A DNA stretch of 40,711 nt from IMG/VR virus record IMGVR_UViG_3300033553_000789, positions 1-40,711 of that record. One strand, 5' to 3'. The notes beneath the pieces were generated by a model. It saw only the letters and a program-made list of their open reading frames with translations. It made no database searches and had not been told where the DNA came from. Below are positions 5,599-30,845 of this stretch, piece after piece; the stretch's first letter is position 1; every line of letters starts with the position of its first letter. The stretch is from a virus. The position numbers and the translations under genes were made by a program.

Positions 5599-5993
5599 GC
5601 TTGGGCCTTGGCCAGCGCGAGCGCAGCGGCGTGAATGCGGGCGTTGAACCAGCGCCGAATCACATAGCTGCGCGCGACCGAAATCACGGTGAACAGCAGG
5701 CCCATGCTGAAGGCTTGACCGCCCGTGATCTCAAAGCCGTACAGCGGCAGGATGTACAGATTGGCGACCCAGTTGATGGCGAAGCCGATGGCGATGTTGA
5801 TCATCACCTCGATCAAGCTGCCCAGCCGGGTCTGGCGGCTTGCGGCCACCAGGGCGGCTCGGCGCGCGGCCATTTGCGCCTTGGTGGCGCGCTGCCTTGG
5901 TGTCAAGATAATCACGGGCTTTTTTAAGCCTAATTCGGCGCTAGCCCCCGTATCCATTGCCTTAGTAGCTATTAAATTAATAGTATAGTTCAT
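5595..5993 (-). CDS. DUF7220-family phage membrane protein with repeat-derived N-terminus
   Basis: A 132-residue protein whose last 85 residues match the DUF7220 family of phage inner-membrane proteins: QTRLGSLIEVMINIAIGFAI starts the first membrane segment and FTVISVARSYVIRRWFN follows the second, with basic residues marking the cytoplasmic side. Family members are usually shorter, about 85-95 residues. The extra N-terminus (about 1-30) is encoded by a dispersed repeat, also found in the terminase gene (see 5942-5984). A start at the internal ATG at 5873 (MAARRAALVAAS) would give the usual length, so the long form is uncertain. It overlaps the upstream gene by 17 bases. Function unknown. Confidence 0.75.
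   Translation of the reverse strand: MNYTINLIATKAMDTGASAELGLKKPVIILTPRQRATKAQMAARRAALVAASRQTRLGSLIEVMINIAIGFAINWVANLYILPLYGFEITGGQAFSMGLLFTVISVARSYVIRRWFNARIHAAALALAKAQA
5942..5984 (-). repeat. Dispersed in-frame repeat, copy 1
   Basis: A 43-bp AT-richer element that matches 21645-21687 on the other strand at 38 of 43 positions. Read leftwards it starts ACTATTAATTTAATAGCTAC and ends GATACGGGGGCTA. It supplies both the TAA stop of the upstream gene (5977-5979) and the first codons of the downstream DUF7220 gene, encoding TINLIATKAMDTGA. Both copies are read in the same frame of the element. Confidence 0.8.
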
Positions 5994-9159: not shown

Positions 9160-9905
9160 GCCGCCACCTTCATCGTCAGATCACCCGCCAGCTTCGCCAG
9201 ACCCTTGGCTGTGACCAGAACTTGCTCGACCATCTTCACTGTGCCGTCGCCGCGCTCAACGGTCGTGACCTTGTGCTCCAGATAGCCCACCTGAATTCGC
9301 GCCTGGTAAGCAATGAAGCCCGAGCCGCCGGCGCGGCGATAGATCCACTGATGCTCCTGCAGCCACGCAAACAGGCGTTTGGGTTGTACCTGCAAGTCCT
9401 TGGCGGCATTGGTAATGCACATGCTGCCTTCGCTCTCGGTGGCGATCAGGTTCAGGGCGTCCACCTTGGGCGCCTGCTCGGCCACTTGCTTGCGCAGCTC
9501 GATCACCTTGGTGGCGTAGTTCAGCAGCAGGCCGCGCACCATTTCTGGGTCTGCCAGCGCATCCATGGCGCTCATGGGTGCTGGCATTTCCTTGGCGCGG
9601 CGCTCGCACTCAATGAAGTAGCGGCGCACCTCGCGGCCCTTGTCGTTGTTCTCCACCATGGCCAGTTCTTTGGCCATGTCGATGGTCAGGTGGTAGTCGC
9701 TGCTTGGTCTACCGCCTTGGGGGTTATTGATAACTTTATCAATTGTGAAATCTTGGTCTTTAATGAAGCCAAACTTCTCAATGCGGGCTTTGATCCAGTT
9801 AGCAAACTCCTGCTTGCTTTGGACAAAGGCCCATAGTTCCCGTGCGTTTACGGTCTGGACAGACTGCTGGGCAATCTGGCGGGGTTCGATCTTGATGAGT
9901 TGCAA
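9156..9905 (-). CDS. Phage antirepressor: AntA/AntB N-terminal and KilAC C-terminal domains
   Basis: A 249-residue antirepressor. Residues about 18-95 form the AntA/AntB domain (VNARELWAFVQSKQEFANWI, then FGFIKDQDFTI, DYHLTIDMAKELAMVENNDK and REVRRYFIECER). Residues about 130-245 form the KilAC DNA-binding domain (ITNAAKDLQVQPKRLFAWLQ, YRRAGGSGFIAYQARIQ, VLVTAKGLAKLA). Such proteins bind or displace prophage repressors and so switch the phage to lytic growth. The start is TTG at 9905, supported by AAGGAG about seven bases upstream. It is the first gene of the leftward early operon and lies behind a promoter covered by an operator shared with the repressor/cro region. Confidence 0.9.
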   Translation of the reverse strand: MQLIKIEPRQIAQQSVQTVNARELWAFVQSKQEFANWIKARIEKFGFIKDQDFTIDKVINNPQGGRPSSDYHLTIDMAKELAMVENNDKGREVRRYFIECERRAKEMPAPMSAMDALADPEMVRGLLLNYATKVIELRKQVAEQAPKVDALNLIATESEGSMCITNAAKDLQVQPKRLFAWLQEHQWIYRRAGGSGFIAYQARIQVGYLEHKVTTVERGDGTVKMVEQVLVTAKGLAKLAGDLTMKVAA

Positions 9906-19629: not shown

Positions 19630-21794
19630 TGAGTCAGAACCCCACCATCAGCCTGCAAAAACTCTGGCCGCACCTGCCCAATGAATTGCGCGGGGCCCTG
19701 CGCGAGTCCTGCGCGCGCGGCCTGCAGGCGCTCAAGGTGCCCGAGCCCTTGACGCTGAGCCAGTGGTCGGCCAAGCACTTCTACCTGAGCGCCGAATCGA
19801 GCCAGAAAACGCAAAAGTGGCGCGCCTACGCCTACCAGATCGGCATCATGGACTGCATGTCGAACGACGACATCGAAGAGTTCGACTTCCAGAAATCGGC
19901 GCGGCTGGGCTATACCAAATGCCTGCTCGCCATGATGGGCTACACCGGCCAGCACCGCCGGCGCAACCAGGCCGTCTGGCAGCCGACCGACGACGACAGC
20001 GACGACTTCTGCAAGACCGAAGTCGAGCCCATGCTGCGCGACGTGCGCATCATGCGCGATGTCTTTCCGCAGGCGCTGGCCAAAAGCAAGAGCAATACCC
20101 TGCAGCAAAAGAAGTTCCTCGGCTCGGTGCTGAAACTGCGCGGTGGCAAGGCTGCCGGAAACTTTCGCCGCCTGACCATTGCGGTGGCCATCCTGGACGA
20201 GCTGGACGGCTTTGATTGGGAAATAGAGCGAGCCGGCGACCCTTGGACGCTGGCGCACAAGCGGCTGGAGGGCGCCACCTTCCCGAAGCTGATCTGCGGC
20301 ACCACGCCGCGTATCAAGGGCCTGAGTCACATCGAGAACCGCATGGCGGCCGCCACCGTGCGCATGAGCTACCAGTGTGCCTGCCCGCATTGCGGCGTCG
20401 AGCACCCGCTGCAATGGGGCGGCAAGAAACACCAGCACGGCTTCAAGTGGGACGTGGAAGACCCCACCGGCACCGTGCGCCACGTCTGCCCGCACTGCCT
20501 CACCGGCTACACCCAGGCGCAGTACCTCAAGGTGGCCGACGCGGGCGCCTGGGTCAGCGACTGCGGCCAGTGGCGCTTGACGCATGACATGAGCAACCCC
20601 GACAAGCCCACCAGCCAGTGGACCACGGCGGACGGAACCGCTTGCCTGGCGCCGCGCCACGTCGGCTTTCACGGCTGGACTGCGCTCAGCCCGCAAGTCA
20701 CCTGGGCTGCGATCGTGCGCGAGTTTCTGGACGCAAAGACAGCCAACAGCAACGGCATGCGCGGCCCGCTCAAGGCCTTCATTAACGAAACCCTGGGCGA
20801 GACCTGGGAGGATGAGGTCGAAAAAGCCGAGGCCCATGTGCTGCAGAAGCGCGCCGAAGCCTACCCACTCATGACTGTTCCCGCCGGGGGCCTCAAGGTC
20901 GCCGCCGGCGTCGACGTGCAAGACAACCGCTTCGAGGTCATCCTGTGGGCCTTTGGCCGAGGTGAAGAAATGTGGGCCGTCGGCTACCTGGTGATCGACG
21001 CCAACCCGGCCGACGAGCGCGACTGGCACAAACTCTGGCAAGTGCTGCAAACCCCGCTCCAGCACGCCAACGGCCCGCTCATCAGCATCGCGGGCGCTGC
21101 GCTCGACACTGGCGGCCACTTCACGCACCAGGCCTACAGCTTTGTGCACGCCTATTCCAACAAGTCCCCCATGCGCCTGATTGCCATCAAGGGATCCAGC
21201 AAGCAGGGCGACCCGATCAAGGGCAAGGGCAGCTACCAGGACATCAACCATGCCGGGCGTATCGTCAAGCGCGGCGTCAAGCTCTGGCTGGTCGGTACGG
21301 ACACCGCGAAGGATCTATTCTTTGGTCGCCTCAAGGTCACGCAGCCCGGGCCCGGCTATGTGCACTTCAGCGCCGACTTGCCGCTGGAGTTCTACAAGGG
21401 CCTGACCGCTGAAGTGCGGGTGCTGGCGCGCACCGCCACGGGCGAGATTTACCGCTGGGTGAATCCAAAAAAGCAGCGCAACGAAGCGCTTGACGGCACC
21501 GTCTACGCCCTGTTCATCAGCCAGGTGCTCGACCTGCACCGCCTGGACGAGCGCCAGTGGCGGCAACTGGAGGCGCAGGTCGAGCCGAACCTGTTTGAGA
21601 TGGCCATGGCCGAGGATGCAAAGCCCGCCGAAGCGCCAGCAATAACTATTAAATCAATAGCTACTGAGGCAATAGATACGAGGGCTACAGCCATAAATGA
21701 TCTAAAAACCAGTCAGCCGCCAAAGCCGCGCCGCACTGCCACCCCGTTCGCCCCCAGTCCCTTTGCACCTGCAGGCTGGAGCAACCGCCTTTAA
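19629..21794 (+). CDS. terL: Terminase large subunit, GpA family
   Basis: A 721-residue packaging motor and nuclease of the lambda GpA family. The ATPase part includes RLGYTKCLLAMMGY in the P-loop region and the Walker B strand VAILDELDGFD. A zinc-finger-like insertion CACPHCGVEH...VCPHCLTGY (about 250-300) and FINETLGETWED (about 383-394) are typical of the family. The nuclease part has acidic residues in AAGVDVQDNRFEVIL and AALDTGGHFTHQAY. The last 50 residues differ in composition: 21645-21687 is a dispersed repeat read in frame (TIKSIATEAIDTRA), followed by a proline-rich tail. The core is intact, so activity may be preserved. Confidence 0.95.
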   Translation: MSQNPTISLQKLWPHLPNELRGALRESCARGLQALKVPEPLTLSQWSAKHFYLSAESSQKTQKWRAYAYQIGIMDCMSNDDIEEFDFQKSARLGYTKCLLAMMGYTGQHRRRNQAVWQPTDDDSDDFCKTEVEPMLRDVRIMRDVFPQALAKSKSNTLQQKKFLGSVLKLRGGKAAGNFRRLTIAVAILDELDGFDWEIERAGDPWTLAHKRLEGATFPKLICGTTPRIKGLSHIENRMAAATVRMSYQCACPHCGVEHPLQWGGKKHQHGFKWDVEDPTGTVRHVCPHCLTGYTQAQYLKVADAGAWVSDCGQWRLTHDMSNPDKPTSQWTTADGTACLAPRHVGFHGWTALSPQVTWAAIVREFLDAKTANSNGMRGPLKAFINETLGETWEDEVEKAEAHVLQKRAEAYPLMTVPAGGLKVAAGVDVQDNRFEVILWAFGRGEEMWAVGYLVIDANPADERDWHKLWQVLQTPLQHANGPLISIAGAALDTGGHFTHQAYSFVHAYSNKSPMRLIAIKGSSKQGDPIKGKGSYQDINHAGRIVKRGVKLWLVGTDTAKDLFFGRLKVTQPGPGYVHFSADLPLEFYKGLTAEVRVLARTATGEIYRWVNPKKQRNEALDGTVYALFISQVLDLHRLDERQWRQLEAQVEPNLFEMAMAEDAKPAEAPAITIKSIATEAIDTRATAINDLKTSQPPKPRRTATPFAPSPFAPAGWSNRL
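21645..21687 (+). repeat. Dispersed in-frame repeat, copy 2
   Basis: A 43-bp element starting ACTATTAAATCAATAGCTAC, matching 5942-5984 (opposite strand) at 38 of 43 bases and read in the same frame. It adds an AT-rich insert to the C-terminal tail of TerL. Weaker similarity continues about 30 bases downstream in both copies. Confidence 0.8.
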
Positions 21795-21808: not shown

Positions 21809-22129
21809 ATGACCAGCATCGCCACCCCCACCAACACCCCCGCCCGCGAAGAATCTAGCGCCCTGTTCCTGCAGCGCGAAATGCAGGACATTTTGACCAG
21901 CGAGACCGGCTTGAAGTCCGAGTTTGCCGCCATGATCGCCGCCGCCCTGGTCACCGGCTGGCGCAAGCGCGCCGGGCGCCAGAGCATCTACATTCCCAGC
22001 CCGACCGATTACGCCGTGCGCGACGCCGCCATCAAGAGTGAATTCAACGGCACCAACCGCGAGGCCGTCTGCCGCAAGCACGACATCAGCCGCACCCGGC
22101 TGTATGAAATCGTCGGCAAGCGCGGTTAA
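21809..22129 (+). CDS. Mor-like transcription activator
   Basis: A 106-residue protein. The C-terminal half (IYIPSPTDYAVRDAAIKSEF, then NGTNREAVCRKHDISRTRLY and EIVGKRG) matches the Mor/C activator family of phage Mu: a beta-strand region then a helix-turn-helix with the usual G-x-N-x-x-x-(L/V) motif. In Mu these proteins switch on middle or late transcription. Here it lies inside the late operon between terminase and portal, and an unusual hairpin starts four bases after its stop codon. It could be a late-gene activator or a local regulator; target unknown. Confidence 0.7.
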   Translation: MTSIATPTNTPAREESSALFLQREMQDILTSETGLKSEFAAMIAAALVTGWRKRAGRQSIYIPSPTDYAVRDAAIKSEFNGTNREAVCRKHDISRTRLYEIVGKRG

Positions 22130-22133
22130 AAAA

Positions 22134-22160
22134 GTCCGGCTTTTTACTTGGAAACCGGAC
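22134..22160 (+). promoter_or_regulatory. Late-operon hairpin, copy 1
   Basis: A 27-base inverted repeat with arms GTCCGG and CCGGAC and an imperfect TTT/AAA extension, beginning four bases after the Mor-like stop. A near-identical element in the same register lies at 26107-26133. No U-run follows, so it is not an ordinary terminator. Confidence 0.6.
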
Positions 22161-22185
22161 AGTCGCGCGCGTATGGTCAGCCACT

Positions 22186-22431
22186 ATGACCACCTTAATC
22201 CAAGCTCAGGCCAAGCTGGCCGAATACCAGGCCGCAGAATCCCGCATCCTTGACGCCCAGGAAGTTCGCCTGGGCGGAGCCGGCATCGACCGCATGGAGC
22301 GCCAGACCGAACTCGCCCTGGTTCAAAAAGGCATTGCCCAATGGCAGCGCACGGTCGACCGGCTCGGCGCCGTGGCCGCCGGCAAACCCACCTTTGGCGG
22401 CCTGACCTTCACCGGCGCGCGCTTCAACTGA
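22186..22431 (+). CDS. gpW/DUF6148-like head-tail connector
   Basis: An 81-residue protein just before the portal gene, where lambda has gpW. The sequence LIQAQAKLAEYQAAESRILD, then GAGIDRMERQTELALVQKGI and AQWQRTVDRLGAV, follows the pattern of the DUF6148/gpW-like family: an N-terminal helix, a short beta turn with GG and a C-terminal helix. It would join head and tail after packaging. The fit in size and position is good. Confidence 0.75.
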   Translation: MTTLIQAQAKLAEYQAAESRILDAQEVRLGGAGIDRMERQTELALVQKGIAQWQRTVDRLGAVAAGKPTFGGLTFTGARFN

Positions 22432-22463
22432 AAGCGCCCAGCGCACTTAACCCAAGGCATCCC

Positions 22464-24035
22464 ATGACGCAACAGCGCAACCTCATCGACCGCGTGGTCG
22501 GCTACTTTTCTCCGTCATCGGGTCTGCGCCGTGTCGGCGTGCGCAACGCGCTCAACGAGGTCGTCAAGGCCAGAGCCCACGACGCCAGCAGCCCGGGCAC
22601 CTCGCGCAAGTTCTACCGCGACCGGCTCAGCCCGAACCAGATCGTGCTGCAGGGCGCCGGCACGCTGATGGCGCAGGCGCGCCACATGGAGCGCAACAAC
22701 GATATTGCGCGCGGCATCCTGCGCACCATGACCAACAGCATCGTCGGCCCCAGCGGAATCGGCATCGAGCCGCAGCCGCGCCGCATGGACGGCACCATCC
22801 ATGAGGAATATGCCGCCGCCCTGCGCGCCGCACACCGCGCCTGGCGAGCTGCCCCAGAAGTCACCGGCCTGCACACAGACGCCGCCATGCAGCGCCTGGC
22901 GTGCCGAACCTGGCTGCGCGACGGAGAAGTCTTTACGCAAGAGGTGATCGGACCGGTACCGGGCCTCACCCATGGCAGCGCTGTACCCTACAGCCTGGAG
23001 CTGTTCGAGGCCGACATGGTTCCCATGGGTTACGACCAAGGGGACCGGATCCGCCAGGGCATCGAGCGCAACGCCTGGGGCCGCCCCATCGCCTATTACG
23101 CTTACAAGGGCAACCCGCTGGAAGGCGCGCTGCCGAGCATGCTGGGCAACAGCGACCTCAAGCGCATCCCGGCCGAGAAGGTGATCCACGTCGCGCTGCG
23201 CGACCGCATCGGACAGATGCGCGGAATCACCGAATTTGCCAGCGTCATCGCGCGCCTGGAGGACATCAAGGACTACGAGGATAGCGAGCGCATCGCCGCC
23301 AAGGTGGCCGCCGCGCTCACAGCCTACGTCAAGAAAACCAACCCCGAGGGCTACGATCCCGACTCCAGCGTCACCAAAGACGAGCACGGCAACCCCGTCG
23401 GGCGCGACCTGCGCATGACGCCCGGCATGATCATCGACGGCCTGGCCGTGGGTGAAGAAATCGGCCTGATCGACAGCACCCGGCCAAACCCCAACGTCGT
23501 CCTTTTCCGCCAGGGCCAGCTGCGCGCCGTGGCCGCCGGTGTTGGCGCCAGTTACTCATCAATAGCACGTGACTACAACGGCACCTATTCAGCCCAGCGC
23601 CAGGAGCTGGTTGAACAGTGGATCAACTACGCTACCCTGACCGACGCCTTTGCTGGCATGCTCATCGTTCCGATGTGGAACAGCTTTGTGCAGGCCGCGC
23701 ACCTGAGTGGCGTCGTGCGCATCCCAAAAGACGTGCTGCCCGGCACCGAGAACGACGCGCTCTGCGTCGCCCAGTCCATGCCGTGGATCGACCCCCTGAA
23801 GGAAATGCAGGGCCTGGTCGAAGGCACGCAGGCCGGCTTCATCAGCGAGGTCGAAGCGATCCGCCGCGCCGGGCGCAACCCGCGCGACGTGTTCGACCAG
23901 ATCGTCTACTGGCGCAAGAAAGCCAAGGGCGCCGACCTGACGCTCAGCAGCGACTTTGCCAACGCCAAGGGCATTGCGCCCGTGGCCACGGCAAGCGCCG
24001 CCAACGCGAGTGCATCTGGCGCCAACGCCGATTAA
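22464..24035 (+). CDS. Portal protein, lambda gpB family
   Basis: A 523-residue portal protein of the lambda gpB (Phage_portal_2) family. I start it at ATG 22464 (MTQQRNLIDRVVGYFSPSSG). Family marks are YRDRLSPNQIVLQGAGTLMA, ARHMERNNDIARGILRTMTN, VGPSGIGIEPQPR (about 40-105) and VIHVALRDRIGQMRGITEFA (about 240-260). The long helix and clip regions follow, and RQELVEQWINYATLTDAFAG is conserved. It forms the dodecameric gate through which terminase pumps DNA. Length is normal. An insertion sequence begins three bases after its TAA stop; the target duplication keeps that stop. Confidence 0.95.
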   Translation: MTQQRNLIDRVVGYFSPSSGLRRVGVRNALNEVVKARAHDASSPGTSRKFYRDRLSPNQIVLQGAGTLMAQARHMERNNDIARGILRTMTNSIVGPSGIGIEPQPRRMDGTIHEEYAAALRAAHRAWRAAPEVTGLHTDAAMQRLACRTWLRDGEVFTQEVIGPVPGLTHGSAVPYSLELFEADMVPMGYDQGDRIRQGIERNAWGRPIAYYAYKGNPLEGALPSMLGNSDLKRIPAEKVIHVALRDRIGQMRGITEFASVIARLEDIKDYEDSERIAAKVAAALTAYVKKTNPEGYDPDSSVTKDEHGNPVGRDLRMTPGMIIDGLAVGEEIGLIDSTRPNPNVVLFRQGQLRAVAAGVGASYSSIARDYNGTYSAQRQELVEQWINYATLTDAFAGMLIVPMWNSFVQAAHLSGVVRIPKDVLPGTENDALCVAQSMPWIDPLKEMQGLVEGTQAGFISEVEAIRRAGRNPRDVFDQIVYWRKKAKGADLTLSSDFANAKGIAPVATASAANASASGANAD

Positions 24036-24038
24036 AAA
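24031..24038 (+). repeat. Target-site duplication, left copy
   Basis: ATTAAAAA, identical to 26097-26104. Eight-base duplications are usual for the ISL3 family. It contains the portal stop codon TAA. Confidence 0.9.
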
Positions 24039-24062
24039 GGCTCTACGGAATAACGTGTGTAA
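24039..24062 (+). repeat. Left terminal inverted repeat of the insertion sequence
   Basis: Starts GGCTCTACGGAATAACGTGT; matches the reverse complement of the right end at 19 of 24 bases. Confidence 0.85.
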
Positions 24063-24120
24063 TTCATGGTTTTCATGCATAATCTAAAAACGGATTAACG
24101 TGTGGAAACAAAGGATTTAT

Positions 24121-24597
24121 ATGCGAGTCATCTTGATTGAAGAAGACAGGTTTGCTGGGGCGTGCAACCTGATGAGAGCAAAGGCTGCTGAACTGAAGAA
24201 TCTTATGGATGCATTTCATCCGCCATGCCTTCTGCCGCGCAGGGAACGAACGCTTTGGACCATACCTTGTATGGTCAGCCCAGCGTTGGTTATGAAAAAG
24301 TTTGGCCGGGGCGACTTGCTGCTCGCTCTGTACCCAATCCAGCATCGGCCAAAATACTACCTCGTCTGGGTAGATGCCAGGTGGATAGAAGATGAAACCT
24401 TGGTGGACGAGTTGGAGGCAATTTATGAAGAAATCGGAGAGGAGTTCGGTTCCTATTCCAGAGACGATGGCCGTTACCAGTGGCCGATGGAGGACTTCAC
24501 CGACGGATGCAGTTGGCATAAGGCTGATTCGGATGATGTGCTTACACCCAGACAAGCTAAACGGCTCACTAACCAATTGAGAGAAACTTCTCTGTAA
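24121..24597 (+). CDS. Passenger protein of the insertion sequence, unknown
   Basis: A 158-residue protein. I choose ATG 24121 (MRVILIEEDRFAGACNLMRA), which has AGGA about eight bases upstream, over a GTG at 24100. It has an N-terminal helical part, a strand-rich centre (LLLALYPIQHRPKYYLVWVD) and an acidic helical end (DETLVDELEAIYEEIGEEFG) followed by DVLTPRQAKRLTNQLRETSL. I recognise no family. ISL3 elements usually encode only a transposase, so this is an accessory gene: a transposition helper, a regulator or a cargo gene. Confidence 0.65.
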   Translation: MRVILIEEDRFAGACNLMRAKAAELKNLMDAFHPPCLLPRRERTLWTIPCMVSPALVMKKFGRGDLLLALYPIQHRPKYYLVWVDARWIEDETLVDELEAIYEEIGEEFGSYSRDDGRYQWPMEDFTDGCSWHKADSDDVLTPRQAKRLTNQLRETSL

Positions 24598-24618
24598 CAG
24601 TGAGTCGACAATTGCTGA

Positions 24619-26085
24619 ATGACTGACATCCTTGACCTCCCCGGCTGGAAAGCCATTGCTAAGCGCCGAGACGACGATGAATACGAGATTGAGGCTGAGT
24701 ACACCGTCCAGCCCACCTCCTGCCAGAAGTGCGGCGTCATTGACCGACTGTACAAGCATGGAACGAAGGCCATTGCCTACCGTGACAGCCCAATCCGAGG
24801 CGCACCGGTCCACATCCTTGCCAACGTCCAGCGGTACAAGTGCCGGGACTGTGGCGAGACGTTCCTGCAGCCCTTGGGCAGCATCCAGCCCGACATGCGG
24901 ATGACTCGGCGGTGTGTGGAGTTCATCCAGTCCCAATGCCTGCGAGACACGTTCCTGCGCATTGCCGAGCATGTCGGCTGTGACGACAAGACCGTCCGGA
25001 CTCTGGCTGGTGACCACATCGCCAAGCTGAACGCCGACTACAAGCCCTACTTGCCCGAGTGGATGGGCATTGACGAAACCCAGATTGACGGCGTGCTCCG
25101 GTGCATCATCACCGACGTGGGCAACAACTGCCCCATCGACATGCTGCCCGACCGAGAGAAGACCACCGTTGTCTCCTGGCTGCACAGATTCAAGGATAGG
25201 GGCGTCGTCAAAGGCTTGGCAATCGACATGTGGCGCCCTTATAAGGATGCCGCTCAGTCCATCTTCCCCGGCCTGCCGGTGGTGATTGACAAGTTCCACG
25301 TCGTTAGGATGGCCAATAGCGGGCTGGAGAAGGTCCGAGTCAGGCTGGCCAAGGCTAAGGATAAGGTGGTTGGCCGGGACTGGATGCGCAGGAAAGCACT
25401 GCTCAGGATGCGTTACGCCAATCTGGACGAAAAGGGTAAGTTCGGCCTCCAGATGTGGATGGACAACGAACCTGAGATTGCTGTCGCCTACCGCATTAAA
25501 GAGGCGTTCTACGACATTTACGACTGCAAGACCCGAGCAGAGGCCGAGCTTGCCCTGGATGCCTGGCACAAGTCCATACCAAAGTCCCTGAAGGCCGAGT
25601 TCAAGGAGTTGGACAGGGCGGCAACGAACTGGCGCAATGAGATTCTTGCCATCTTTGACTACCCCATCAGCAACGGGTACACAGAGGCGCTGAACGGCGT
25701 GGCGAAGGTCGTCAACAGGCAAGGCAGGGGTTACAGCTTTGAGGTGCTTCGTGCCCGCATCCTGTTCGGTAGGAAGCTCAAGAAGCTGAAAGAGCCTGAA
25801 ACCATTGAAGAGATTGAGGCCGAAGAGATTCCAGAGCCGGAGCTTGTCACCATCGATACAAGCCGAAGAAAAAGGCATGGGATGCGTTGGGCGCTGCTGG
25901 CTAAGTATGAAAACCGTTGCCAGTCGTGCCTGGGAATCTTTGAGCCAGAGAACCTTTATATGACCCGCATGGGTCCGCTGCTTGACGATGAACCCATGGT
26001 CAACATGACCTTGCTGTGCGAGGCCTGCAAAGTCAGATTCCACACGGATGGAGCTATTCAGCATGATTCAACTTCCACACCTTAA
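24619..26085 (+). CDS. ISL3-family transposase with C-terminal HNH-like zinc extension
   Basis: A 488-residue DDE transposase. The N-terminal zinc finger has C35-x2-C38 and C75-x2-C78 (CQKCGV, CRDCGETF), followed by an HTH (LRIAEHVGCDDKTVRTLAGD). The catalytic triad is visible as D152 in MGIDETQIDGV, D224 in VVIDKFHVVRMAN and E356 in SNGYTEALNGVAKVVNRQGR, all in the ISL3 pattern. ISL3 transposases normally end near residue 400-430. Here about 60 more residues hold C434-x2-C437, C467-x2-C470 and H475 (NRCQSCLGIF, LLCEACKVRFH), an HNH-type zinc module. The gene is intact and its stop lies inside the right inverted repeat. Confidence 0.95.
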   Translation: MTDILDLPGWKAIAKRRDDDEYEIEAEYTVQPTSCQKCGVIDRLYKHGTKAIAYRDSPIRGAPVHILANVQRYKCRDCGETFLQPLGSIQPDMRMTRRCVEFIQSQCLRDTFLRIAEHVGCDDKTVRTLAGDHIAKLNADYKPYLPEWMGIDETQIDGVLRCIITDVGNNCPIDMLPDREKTTVVSWLHRFKDRGVVKGLAIDMWRPYKDAAQSIFPGLPVVIDKFHVVRMANSGLEKVRVRLAKAKDKVVGRDWMRRKALLRMRYANLDEKGKFGLQMWMDNEPEIAVAYRIKEAFYDIYDCKTRAEAELALDAWHKSIPKSLKAEFKELDRAATNWRNEILAIFDYPISNGYTEALNGVAKVVNRQGRGYSFEVLRARILFGRKLKKLKEPETIEEIEAEEIPEPELVTIDTSRRKRHGMRWALLAKYENRCQSCLGIFEPENLYMTRMGPLLDDEPMVNMTLLCEACKVRFHTDGAIQHDSTSTP

Positions 26086-26096
26086 TCCGCTGAGCC
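26073..26096 (-). repeat. Right terminal inverted repeat of the insertion sequence
   Basis: Read inward on the minus strand it starts GGCTCAGCGGATTAAGGTGT; 19 of 24 positions match the left end. Confidence 0.85.
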
Positions 26097-26104
26097 ATTA
26101 AAAA
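26097..26104 (+). repeat. Target-site duplication, right copy
   Basis: ATTAAAAA, identical to 24031-24038. Before insertion this single copy linked the portal stop codon directly to the hairpin at 26107. Confidence 0.9.
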
Positions 26105-26106
26105 TA

Positions 26107-26133
26107 GTCCGGTTTATTACTTAAAAACCGGAC
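26107..26133 (+). promoter_or_regulatory. Late-operon hairpin, copy 2
   Basis: A 27-base perfect inverted repeat: arms GTCCGGTTT (26107-26115) and AAACCGGAC (26125-26133) with loop ATTACTTAA. It matches 22134-22160 in length, register and flanks (TTAAAAA before, AG after). Without the insertion sequence it would start six bases after the portal stop. Confidence 0.7.
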
Positions 26134-26157
26134 AGCTTGAGCCGCACCATGCGGCCC

Positions 26158-28296
26158 ATGACACAAACCACTGCGCCACAAACCGATACAGGGGTCGACC
26201 ATGTAAACGCTACCAGTCCCGCCCCCTGGTACAGCATCCGGCAAAAGACGCCGGTCGCCGCAGCCGCTGGCCAGCAAGCCAGCGCCTCCGCTGAAATCTT
26301 CATCTATGGCGACATCGGTGAATCCTGGTGGGCCGAGACCACCACCGCCGCGCAGTTCGTCAAAGACATCGCCGCCATCAGTGCCCAGTCCCTCACAATT
26401 CGCATCAATTCAATGGGCGGCTCTGTGCCTGATGGCGTAGCGATCTACAACGCGATCAAGCGCCACGCGGCGCACGTCACCACCGTCATCGACGGCGTGG
26501 CCATGAGCATCGCCAGCCTGATCGCCATGGCCGGCGACACCGTGGAGATGGCCGAGAACGCCATTCTCATGGTGCACGCCCCCTGGACCGGCATGGCCGG
26601 CAACAGCGCCGACATGCGCGAGGCCGCCGCCATGCTCGACCAGTTCGCCAGCGCCATGGCCACCAGCTATGCCAGCAAGACCGGCCAGCCCGTGGCCGAC
26701 ATGCTCGCGCTGCTGACCGACGGCGCGGACCACTACTACACCGCCAGCGAGGCCAAAGACATCGGTTTCGTCGACGCCATCACCAGCGGCCAGCCCGTGG
26801 CCGCTTCTGCAGCCCTGCGCCTGCAGGCCGCTGCCCGCTTTCCCCGTTCCCCCCGTCCGGTGGCCCCTGCCGCCAGTCTCCCCGTGGCGCCCGCCACCCA
26901 CTCCTTGAAAGACTCAACCATGACTCAAACAGTCAACCAACCGGCGGCCCATGCACCCCAAGCAGCAGCCATCGACATCAACGCCGCCGTGCAAGCCGCC
27001 CTGGTAGCCGACGGCACGCGCCGTGAAGCGATCCACGCCAGCTTTGCCAGCTTTGCCGAGCGCGACGGCGTAGCCGCCCTGCGCGCCGCCTGCCAGAGCA
27101 ACACCGCGTGCAGCGTAGAAGCCGCAGGCCTGCAACTGCTCGCTCACCTGGGCGCCAACAGCGCGCCGGTGGCCGGCCACACCAGCGTCAACACCGTCAA
27201 GGACGAGGGCGACAAACACCGCGACGCCATGGTTAACGCCCTGCTGGCGCGCGCCAGCATCAGCCTTGACAAAACCGGCCCGGTGCGCGCCGACGGCGCC
27301 AACCCCTACCGTGGCAACAAGCTGCTCGACATCGCCAAAGCCTGCCTGGCCCGCGCTGGCGTGCGCAGCGACGGCATGGACCAGCGCGCCATCGTCGCCG
27401 CCGCCTTCACACAGGGCACCGGGGACTTCCCGATCCTGCTGGAAAACGTCATGCACAAGACCCTGCAGGCCGCCTATGCGCTGCAGGCCGACACCTGGAC
27501 CGCCTTCTGCGCCCGTGGCACTGTCAGCGACTTCCGCGCTCATAGCCGCTACCGTGTCGGCAGTCTGTCCAACCTGGACGCCAAGAACGAACTCGGCGAG
27601 TTCAAGAACAAGGCCATCCCCGACGGTGAAAAGGCCAGCATCACGGCCAAGACCAAGGGCAACATCATCACCATCAGCCGCGAGGCCGTCATCAACGACG
27701 ACATGGGCGCCTTCACCGGCCTGGCCTCCAGCCTGGGGCGCGCTGCCAAGCGTACCGTCGAGGCCGATGTATACGCCGCGCTGGCGCTCAACGCCGGCAT
27801 GGGTCCGGTGTTGGCAGATGGCATTACGCTGTTCCATGCCAATCACGGCAACGTGTCGACCGGCGCACCCACGGTCGTCAGTTTTGACGCAGCCGGCACG
27901 GTCATGAGCCTGCAAAAAGACGTGTCAGGCAATGACTTTTTGGACCTGCAACCCGCCGTCTGGCTGGGTCCTCGCGCCATCAAGGGTGCGGCAAAAGTCG
28001 TCAACAACAGCATCTATGACCCCGATGCCAACAACAAGCTGCAGCGCGAGAACATCGCCGCCAACATGGTGACCCTGATCGTCGGCACGCCGCGCCTGAC
28101 CGGCCTGCCCTGGTACTTCTTTGCCGACCCCAACCAGGCACCGGTGCTCGAAGTGGCGTTCCTGGACGGCATCGACACCCCGTACCTGGAGCTGGAAAAC
28201 GGCTTCAGCGTCGACGGCGCCAGCTGGAAAGCCCGCATGGACTACGGCATTGCCGGCGTCGACTACCGCGGCGCGGTGCGCTCCACCGGCGCCTAA
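26158..28296 (+). CDS. ClpP-like prohead protease fused to major capsid protein
   Basis: A 712-residue fusion. Residues about 46-210 are a ClpP-fold protease: IFIYGDIG, INSMGGSVPDGVAIYNAIKR, catalytic S117 in GVAMSIASLIAMAG, H140 in LMVHAPW and a candidate Asp at 188-191. A basic/proline linker (about 215-255) leads to a helical scaffold-like part, and residues about 400-712 are a HK97-fold major capsid protein of the Mu gpT-like type (FPILLENVMHKTLQAAYALQ, GNIITISREAVINDDMGAFT, LFHANHGN). Prohead protease/capsid fusions are a known arrangement. An in-frame ATG at 26920 (MTQTVNQ) may give a separate product. Start 26158 is preferred; ATG 26149 is possible. Confidence 0.9.
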   Translation: MTQTTAPQTDTGVDHVNATSPAPWYSIRQKTPVAAAAGQQASASAEIFIYGDIGESWWAETTTAAQFVKDIAAISAQSLTIRINSMGGSVPDGVAIYNAIKRHAAHVTTVIDGVAMSIASLIAMAGDTVEMAENAILMVHAPWTGMAGNSADMREAAAMLDQFASAMATSYASKTGQPVADMLALLTDGADHYYTASEAKDIGFVDAITSGQPVAASAALRLQAAARFPRSPRPVAPAASLPVAPATHSLKDSTMTQTVNQPAAHAPQAAAIDINAAVQAALVADGTRREAIHASFASFAERDGVAALRAACQSNTACSVEAAGLQLLAHLGANSAPVAGHTSVNTVKDEGDKHRDAMVNALLARASISLDKTGPVRADGANPYRGNKLLDIAKACLARAGVRSDGMDQRAIVAAAFTQGTGDFPILLENVMHKTLQAAYALQADTWTAFCARGTVSDFRAHSRYRVGSLSNLDAKNELGEFKNKAIPDGEKASITAKTKGNIITISREAVINDDMGAFTGLASSLGRAAKRTVEADVYAALALNAGMGPVLADGITLFHANHGNVSTGAPTVVSFDAAGTVMSLQKDVSGNDFLDLQPAVWLGPRAIKGAAKVVNNSIYDPDANNKLQRENIAANMVTLIVGTPRLTGLPWYFFADPNQAPVLEVAFLDGIDTPYLELENGFSVDGASWKARMDYGIAGVDYRGAVRSTGA

Positions 28297-29867: not shown

Positions 29868-30845
29868 ATGGCCACACGTCGCTTAAAAAACACCACCATC
29901 CTCGCCAAACTTGGCGTTACCTACGGCACCGACATCGTCCCCACCGGCGCTGCCAACGCCATCCTGGTCAGTGATGTCTCCTTCACCCCCCTGGATGCCA
30001 CCAACGTCGACCGCAATTTCATCCGCGCCTACATGGGCGCCAGTGAAAACCTGGTCGGCACCGCCTTCAAGTCGCTCAGCTACAGCGTCGAGCTGGTAGG
30101 CTCCGGCACGGCAGGCACGGCGCCCGCCTGGGGGGCGCTGCTGCGCGCCTGCGGCTTTGCCGAAACCCTGGTGGCGCTCACCCGCGTTGACTACCTCCCC
30201 ATCAGCACCGCCTTTGAGTGGGTTGACCAGTATTACTACGCTGACGGCGTGCTGCACAAGCTGCTAGGCTGCCGTGGCACCGCATCGCTGGACCTCAGTG
30301 CTGGCGCCATCCCCAAGATCAAATTTCAGTTCAAGGGAATTGACGGCGGCGTCGCGGTAAATGCGCCTGCTGGCGTTGACTACGCCACCTGGAAAACCCC
30401 GCAAGTCATCACCGACGTCAATACGCTGGACCTGTTGCGCGGCTGCACCCATGCCGCCACCGTGGCCCCGGTGCTGGTCGGAGGCACCGTCACCCCCTAC
30501 AGCAAATACACACTCGACTTCGGTGTCGATGCGCCATTCATCCCTCTGATCGGCGGCGAGTCTGTCGAAATCATGGACCGCAAGATCACCGGCGACCTCG
30601 AGGTCGACCTGACCGCTGCGCAAGACGTGAGCTTCATGGCCGACGTCAAGGCCAACACCCTGCAAAGCCTGGGCCTGGTGCACGGCACTGTCGTTGGCAA
30701 CAAGACCCTGATCTTCGCCCCGGGCGTGCAACTCACCAGCCCGAGCTATGGCGACCTCAGCGGAAAGCTCATGAGCAACTTCAAGCTGGTGCTACCACCC
30801 ACTGGCGCCGGCAACAACGAGCTGCGCATCGTCACCAGCTTCTAA
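29868..30845 (+). CDS. Major tail tube protein
   Basis: A 325-residue protein of the phage tail tube family (Phage_tube_2 type). Marks are NTTILAKLGVTYGTDIVPTG, AYMGASENLVGTAFKSLSYS, VELVGSGTAGTAPAWGALLR and LHKLLGCRGTASLDLSAGAI, with the C-terminal ELRIVTSF. It polymerises around the tape measure into the tail tube. An AGGAG lies just before the ATG (end of the preceding stop). It is followed by a stable hairpin, as is the capsid gene. Confidence 0.85.
   Translation: MATRRLKNTTILAKLGVTYGTDIVPTGAANAILVSDVSFTPLDATNVDRNFIRAYMGASENLVGTAFKSLSYSVELVGSGTAGTAPAWGALLRACGFAETLVALTRVDYLPISTAFEWVDQYYYADGVLHKLLGCRGTASLDLSAGAIPKIKFQFKGIDGGVAVNAPAGVDYATWKTPQVITDVNTLDLLRGCTHAATVAPVLVGGTVTPYSKYTLDFGVDAPFIPLIGGESVEIMDRKITGDLEVDLTAAQDVSFMADVKANTLQSLGLVHGTVVGNKTLIFAPGVQLTSPSYGDLSGKLMSNFKLVLPPTGAGNNELRIVTSF

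Follow-up and report, generated by a model that had tools for sequence, protein, structure and literature searches.

Paired dyads ahead of the head genes of a lambda-type phage as probable operators of a Mor-like late activator

The closest known system to the locus described here is that of the Mor/C activators of phage Mu. Members of this family activate transcription (PMC4390567, PMC4461284). The Mor element of Mu comprises 16 base pairs (bp) with two 5-bp repeats and is centred at -43.5; the C-terminal domain of the RNA polymerase alpha subunit (alphaCTD) binds an A/T tract just upstream, and the promoter has a -10 element and no good -35 element (PMC4390567, PMC4287176). In the Mu C system, a single Mor-family activator controls a small number of promoters ahead of structural and lysis genes, and their -10 elements deviate from the consensus (PMC4461284); the locus described here resembles it in these respects. 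The present analysis concerns a viral DNA of 40,711 nucleotides (nt) (IMG/VR record IMGVR_UViG_3300033553_000789, positions 1 to 40,711; hereafter the window). It contains two near-identical 27-nt dyads, site A between the stop codon of a mor-like gene (22129) and the ATG of a gpW-like gene (22186), and site B ahead of the ATG of a protease-capsid gene (26158). Comparison with related phages indicates that both dyads are very probably operators of the Mor-like protein within late promoters. The features concerned are:

21809..22129, + strand: mor-like gene, 106 amino acids (aa), Mor/C family activator (Pfam Mor, phrog_532)
22127..22133, + strand: A tract before operator A, possible UP-like alphaCTD contact (basis: sequence and A/T enrichment in 91 sites)
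22134..22160, + strand: putative operator dyad A, half-sites GTCCGG and CCGGAC (basis: sequence and relatives)
22172..22177, + strand: -10 hexamer TATGGT of late promoter A, 11 nt past the dyad, predicted start at ~22184-22186
22186..22431, + strand: gpW-like head-tail adaptor gene, ATG 8 nt past the hexamer (phrog_118)
22464..24035, + strand: portal gene of the lambda family (Pfam Phage_portal_2, 313 bits)
26107..26133, + strand: putative operator dyad B, half-sites GTCCGG and CCGGAC (basis: sequence and covariance-model match)
26145..26150, + strand: -10-like hexamer CACCAT of late promoter B, 11 nt past the dyad, predicted start at or near 26158
26158..28296, + strand: head maturation protease / capsid fusion gene, ATG 7 nt past the hexamer (Pfam CLP_protease and Phage_capsid_4, phrog_133)

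Dyad A (GTCCGGCTTTTTACTTGGAAACCGGAC) and dyad B (GTCCGGTTTATTACTTAAAAACCGGAC) are 86% identical across 35 nt, and the pair of matching 27-base hairpins described in the original prediction, an earlier reading of this DNA from its letters alone, is present as described. Chance alone readily produces single palindromes with 6-bp arms (the window has 13, dinucleotide shuffles a mean of 16.5); a look-alike pair arose in none of 100 such shuffles. The arms GTCCGG...CCGGAC are found in both dyads, but the 9-base loop given earlier applies to dyad B, the only one with a full 9-bp stem and a 9-nt loop, since dyad A has a C.A mismatch at arm position 7. The folding z-scores are -2.9 and -4.4. That neither hairpin is followed by a U-run is correct for the + strand, where the tails read AGTCGC and AGCTTG, but not for the - strand, on which U-rich tracts (UUUUUU or UAUUUU) follow both stems, since each dyad has the A tract on its 5' side. 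Across 91 sites, the five positions preceding the left arm are 85-99% A/T against a background of 38%, and a tract of the alphaCTD type would account for the TTAAAAA noted earlier. This motif had been placed at or next to a stop codon; at site B this is true of the portal stop if an insertion sequence (IS) described below is removed, but the open reading frame (ORF) upstream of the site today is the IS transposase, with its stop at 26085.

The Mor-like protein matches Pfam Mor (PF08765) with 34.4 bits against a cutoff of 24.9 and is assigned to phrog_532, late transcriptional activator. With a Mor domain and a C-terminal helix-turn-helix it is a member of the Mor/C family. A structure model places helices at residues 84-91 and 95-103, the latter as second helix of the helix-turn-helix; the predicted recognition helix covers about residues 95-103, with E100 (codon 22106-22108) as the putative specificity residue. 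The best structural matches of this monomer model are Mu C and Mor (9L0X, 1RR7 and 9L0Y; best E value 1.6e-3, TM 0.3-0.4), Mu C chains being matched best among the structures, and profile matches were obtained to 9L0X and 1RR7/9L0Y. In an annotated phage collection no relative of the protein was found at E 0.001, and a search of this collection with the Mor protein of a related phage (L083) returned only four distant relatives.

Relatives were gathered through portal homologues in viral contigs and genomes and through two further Mor searches, giving a final set of 53 phages in which a Mor-like gene is accompanied by one or more sites. An exact pattern scan of viral contigs with the arms of the window gave no matches, because the arms differ between phages; types encountered among the relatives are GTCCGG, GTCCAG/CTAGAC, GTCTAG, GTCTCA, TTCCAC and GTTGCA, and the element was found only via portal and Mor homologues. 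Among the portal homologues, a dyad stands ahead of gpW and another ahead of the protease gene in phage after phage. The original prediction had proposed a search of related phages and held that absence from relatives with the same genes would count against the element; it recurs before both genes, and the dyads are kept across relatives.

A covariance model of the element recovered exactly two + strand sites in the window, one additional match being the same dyad read on the - strand. On the coding strand, sites A and B were the only matches in the complete phage contigs G002, G003, G004 and G007, and the bacterial genomes G015 and G016 (6.9 and 6.0 Mb) hold two sites each. The idea of a host repeat was rejected, as just 8 of 301 genomes in the family of G015 have any match, with at most 3 each. 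A third site in G006 (30714-30765; L098:10815-10866) precedes a lysis-like cluster encoding a membrane protein, a muramidase-like and a spanin-like protein, which recalls the C-activated Plys of Mu. A third site, 18 kb downstream, is also present in G042.

About 45 relatives share a common design consisting of an A/T tract, the dyad, 11 nt, a -10-like hexamer and usually an ATG 6-8 nt further on. The hexamer was assessed in 34 sites that had been collected by their dyad, not by a promoter motif, and aligned on the right arm. Position 2 of the hexamer is an A in 30 of the 34 sites and position 6 a T in as many (30/34), both as isolated conserved bases. An A and a T at these places are the two bases under the strongest constraint in the sigma70 -10 element. 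The spacing from dyad to hexamer is constant across relatives, and the distance to the upstream gene or stop is variable: in L019 and L020 site A falls within the last mor codons, in L015 and L083 it overlaps the 3' end of mor, and in L004 and L009 inserted genes precede it. Features of Mor/C promoters found here by comparative sequence analysis and covariation are a dyad that overlaps the -35 region or immediately precedes it, a -10 element and a poor -35 element, with binding as a prediction, and the operator is a variant of the Mor/C operator type.

Start sites were predicted by analogy with Pm of Mu, in which the -10 hexamer TATCCT occupies -13 to -8; the numbering was checked against the bases -57G, -55A and -54A named in PMC4390567. 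By this rule the ATG would lie at +2 in promoter A of the window and at +1 in its promoter B. Of 91 sites, 49 have their ATG 6-8 nt past the hexamer, mostly without a ribosome-binding motif; almost every A site belongs to this group, and the mRNAs are hence expected to be leaderless or nearly so. For the two sites of the window such transcripts appear likely. In a Variovorax-type clade, the B leader often opens with a predicted 5'-terminal hairpin before the protease ATG, e.g. GAGGGCTCTCCAATCGAGAGCCCTC (L161:6159-6245, L165:7535-7620 and relatives).

The half-site arms vary between phages yet match within one phage: bases 4-6 of the right half-site agree between sites A and B of the same phage in 91% of cases, against a mean of 51% and a maximum of 64% after shuffling. 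Base 5 of the half-site follows the alignment column of E100. Among Mor proteins less than 90% identical, E is paired with G in 17 of 17, Q with A in 10 of 10 and R with C in 7 of 7; counted per half-site, the pairings hold in 71/72, 38/38 and 34/34, respectively. The remaining columns of the Mor alignment, which share the same ancestry, served as internal control. The E100 column was the most informative of all, with 1.18 excess bits out of a base-5 entropy of 1.62 bits, and was followed by two further positions in its helix, T96 and R97. For base 1 the best predictor is R95 and for base 4 it is T96, both within the predicted recognition helix. In ordinary side-chain readout, Gln goes with A, Arg with G on the other strand and Glu with C on the other strand, and the observed pairs E-G, Q-A and R-C agree with it. 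On a tree from which the helix had been excluded, 19 changes account for residue and base jointly and the same number for the residue alone, and all five supported independent contrasts between E and non-E point in the same direction. Residue and arm switch together in close pairs (L015 with E and CCGG versus L083 with A and CCAG; L003 with E versus L026 with Q). Seven more distant phages, which do not enter these counts, also fit, namely L116 (E, G; right half-site alone clearly readable), L134 and L135 (Q, A), and L179, L024, L034 and L085 (R, C). A reading of Pm of Mu by the rule was set aside, since the register is uncertain and the A/T content leaves it uninformative. The tracking of the arm bases with the Mor recognition helix identifies the Mor-like protein as the probable reader of the dyads; together with the fixed spacing to the -10 hexamer, it strongly favours the regulator operator among the possibilities that the original prediction had listed.

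Several points weigh against this assignment or narrow it. The 16-bp geometry of the Mu Mor element, with 5-bp repeats centred at -43.5, is not reproduced, the dyad here being 27 bp long and centred near -38. L022 and L023 carry a site A-like dyad (4724) before gpW, and no Mor gene was found adjacent to it; their activator may be encoded at another place or have given way to a different one. The hexamer formed part of the covariance model, whose 91/91 A and T are thus not independent, only the 30/34 being so. The phylogenetic contrasts comprise only five independent pairs on supported branches, for which the sign test gives p 0.06 (five cannot reach 0.05), and the tree rests on 91 columns. Residue 100 is ambiguous when it is D (with G or A) or K (with A or C). 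Finally, B-site leaders of 24-47 nt in one Variovorax-type clade mean that leaderless output is not universal.

Compared with Mu, the window shares a Mor-domain activator encoded directly upstream of its promoter, as for Mor and Pm, and a left half-site that begins at about -51 when numbered from the -10 element. In contrast to Pm, the centre of the site is A/T-rich here and G/C-rich in Mu, and the right half-site lies about one helical turn further downstream, the half-sites of the window being about two helical turns apart. Cryo-electron microscopy entries of Mu C and Mor contain four activator chains each, and a two-dimer assembly could span the longer 27-bp site. Pm serves small middle genes and the late activator C, with a leader and a ribosome-binding site, whereas the sites here precede head genes, usually with no leader. 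Mu C, the gene of which is separate from Mor, acts at the late promoters lys, I, P and mom; sites, positions and recognition differ here. Unlike Mu, the phage of the window has lambda-type terminase, portal and ClpP-protease genes, and two sites only. In Mu itself (L193, record 9178-9198), Pm overlaps a predicted terminator hairpin (AAAGCCGGTTAATCCGGCTTT) centred near -37, close to the dyad centres, which may be a coincidence.

The DNA between the portal gene and site B is occupied by an IS of the ISL3 family:

24031..24038: left copy of the target-site duplication ATTAAAAA, 8 bp, overlapping the portal stop
24039..26096, + strand: ISL3-family insertion sequence of 2058 bp, terminal inverted repeats matching at 19/24, ISL3 transposase match
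24100-24597: IS passenger ORF, 165 aa, preceding the transposase
24619-26085, + strand: IS transposase ORF (NF033550, 288.6 bits)
26097..26104: right copy of the target-site duplication ATTAAAAA, 8 bp, which keeps the A tract of operator B in place

The element has the ISL3 transposase, the GGCTC-type terminal inverted repeats and the 8-bp target duplication of the family, and related elements (L195, L197-L200) have matching ends and 8-bp duplications of their own. It differs from the family in a C-terminal transposase tail with two cysteine pairs (CQSC...CEAC), resembling an HNH or zinc-finger motif, and in the passenger ORF, which had no family match over 24100-24597; these are traits of the neighbour of site B and not of the operators. 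Among the elements L194-L200, the length varies at the passenger-ORF region. When the flanks are rejoined without the IS, the portal gene runs into GATTAAAAATAGTCCGG, the same run as TTAAAAATAGTCCGG in L003, and site B hence originally lay directly after the portal stop. Elsewhere in the window, a 48-nt inverted repeat occurs in two copies (5937-5984 and 21645-21692, 85% match), one of them in frame within the 3' end of terL. Its core was absent from shuffles and present in 3 copies in 1 of 41 genomes of the family of a Variovorax strain; the repeat is possibly a dispersed repeat acquired by the phage.

The position of the dyads allows other readings, among them that of RNA hairpins acting in the late transcript through processing, protection or pausing between genes, the first two of which the original prediction had raised. 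Both dyads fold well, and their arms covary across phages, as mirror-symmetric DNA sites would likewise do. RNA stems are expected to show G.U pairs and repaired mismatches. In the dyads, G.U is rare, and of 29 aligned sites 11 retain a C.A mismatch at position 4, GTCCAG facing CTAGAC, instead of a standard pair. Moreover, the predicted starts lie downstream of the dyads, site A is inside the mor 3' end in several phages, the spacing is fixed to the -10 hexamer rather than to the upstream stop, the arm sequence tracks the DNA-recognition helix, and Rfam gave no match at gathering score for 22000-26400. Mirror-symmetric half-sites read by one protein explain the kept mismatch, the rare G.U and the upstream position, and a function as RNA hairpin is considered highly improbable. 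Intrinsic termination on the + strand is not indicated, since no U-run follows the G/C-rich stems on the transcribed strand. Terminators of the opposite strand could draw on the U-rich tracts after both - strand stems, but the continuous A tract that encodes them is missing in many relatives, the conserved -10 would be left unexplained, and a terminator scan of the window picked neither dyad; this function is extremely unlikely.

If instead a lysogeny repressor or another phage regulator bound the dyads, with the Mor-like protein merely linked, their overlap with the -35 region would be accounted for, as this is a frequent repressor position. The covariation, however, is with the Mor helix and declines outside it, and strict spacing together with weak -35 and -10 matches suits an activator, as which Mor/C proteins act (PMC4390567, PMC4461284); a repressor is very unlikely. 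The dyads stand on either side of a block of genes, and recombination between two such similar copies is conceivable, so that they might be recombination linkers or edges of an exchangeable gpW-portal cassette; cassette edges had also been suggested earlier. Boundary sequences comparable to such edges have been described in lambdoid phages. The gpW-portal block is nevertheless kept between sites A and B in relatives, the third copy in G006 stands before lysis-like genes, and the mobile DNA next to site B is the ISL3 element, whose termini and target duplication are its own and lie outside the dyads. The cassette reading was rejected on the last ground and is exceedingly improbable.

For the preferred reading, operators of the Mor-like protein, we infer the following course. 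The sequences themselves show the positions, the spacing, the conservation, the covariation of residue and base, and the ends and duplication of the IS; binding, activation, start sites and leaderless translation are predictions. Terminase and mor would be transcribed together, as the gene order suggests. The C-terminal helix-turn-helix of the Mor-like protein would then bind the two operators, and in every half-site residue 100 would read base pair 5. Each operator would span about -51 to -25 of a late promoter with a weak -35-like match and a weak -10 element (TATGGT in A, CACCAT in B), to which host RNA polymerase would be recruited, perhaps aided by alphaCTD on the A tract. Promoter A would then serve gpW and portal, and promoter B the protease-capsid gene and the genes behind it, with starts predicted at or within ~2 nt of the ATG and (near-)leaderless mRNAs as the outcome. 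The ISL3 element inserted later, just upstream of promoter B, leaving the promoter intact. In more general terms, we regard it as moderately likely that a large group of lambda-type phages other than Mu places its head genes under two Mor-activated promoters with a two-turn operator straddling the -35 region and starts on the ATG, giving leaderless late mRNAs, and that the residue-100 rule (E-G, Q-A and R-C at base 5) makes the operators predictable, specificity residing largely in one residue.

Within the literature searched, which yielded papers on Mu and nothing on these late promoters or on a Mor recognition rule, the geometry of the operators, the leaderless output and the rule linking residue and base appear to be new; the paper on the Variovorax phage VarioGold does not mention Mor or promoters. 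The pair of hairpins would thereby become a defined late-gene circuit in a widespread phage group, mainly of Burkholderiales, for which the literature searched describes no late-gene switch. For the Mor/C family, the analysis supplies a residue-to-base rule testable by single substitutions. The predicted leaderless mRNAs of the head genes would be a simple setting for studies of leaderless translation, and the correspondence between arm and residue would explain how the late switches of neighbouring phages are insulated from each other.

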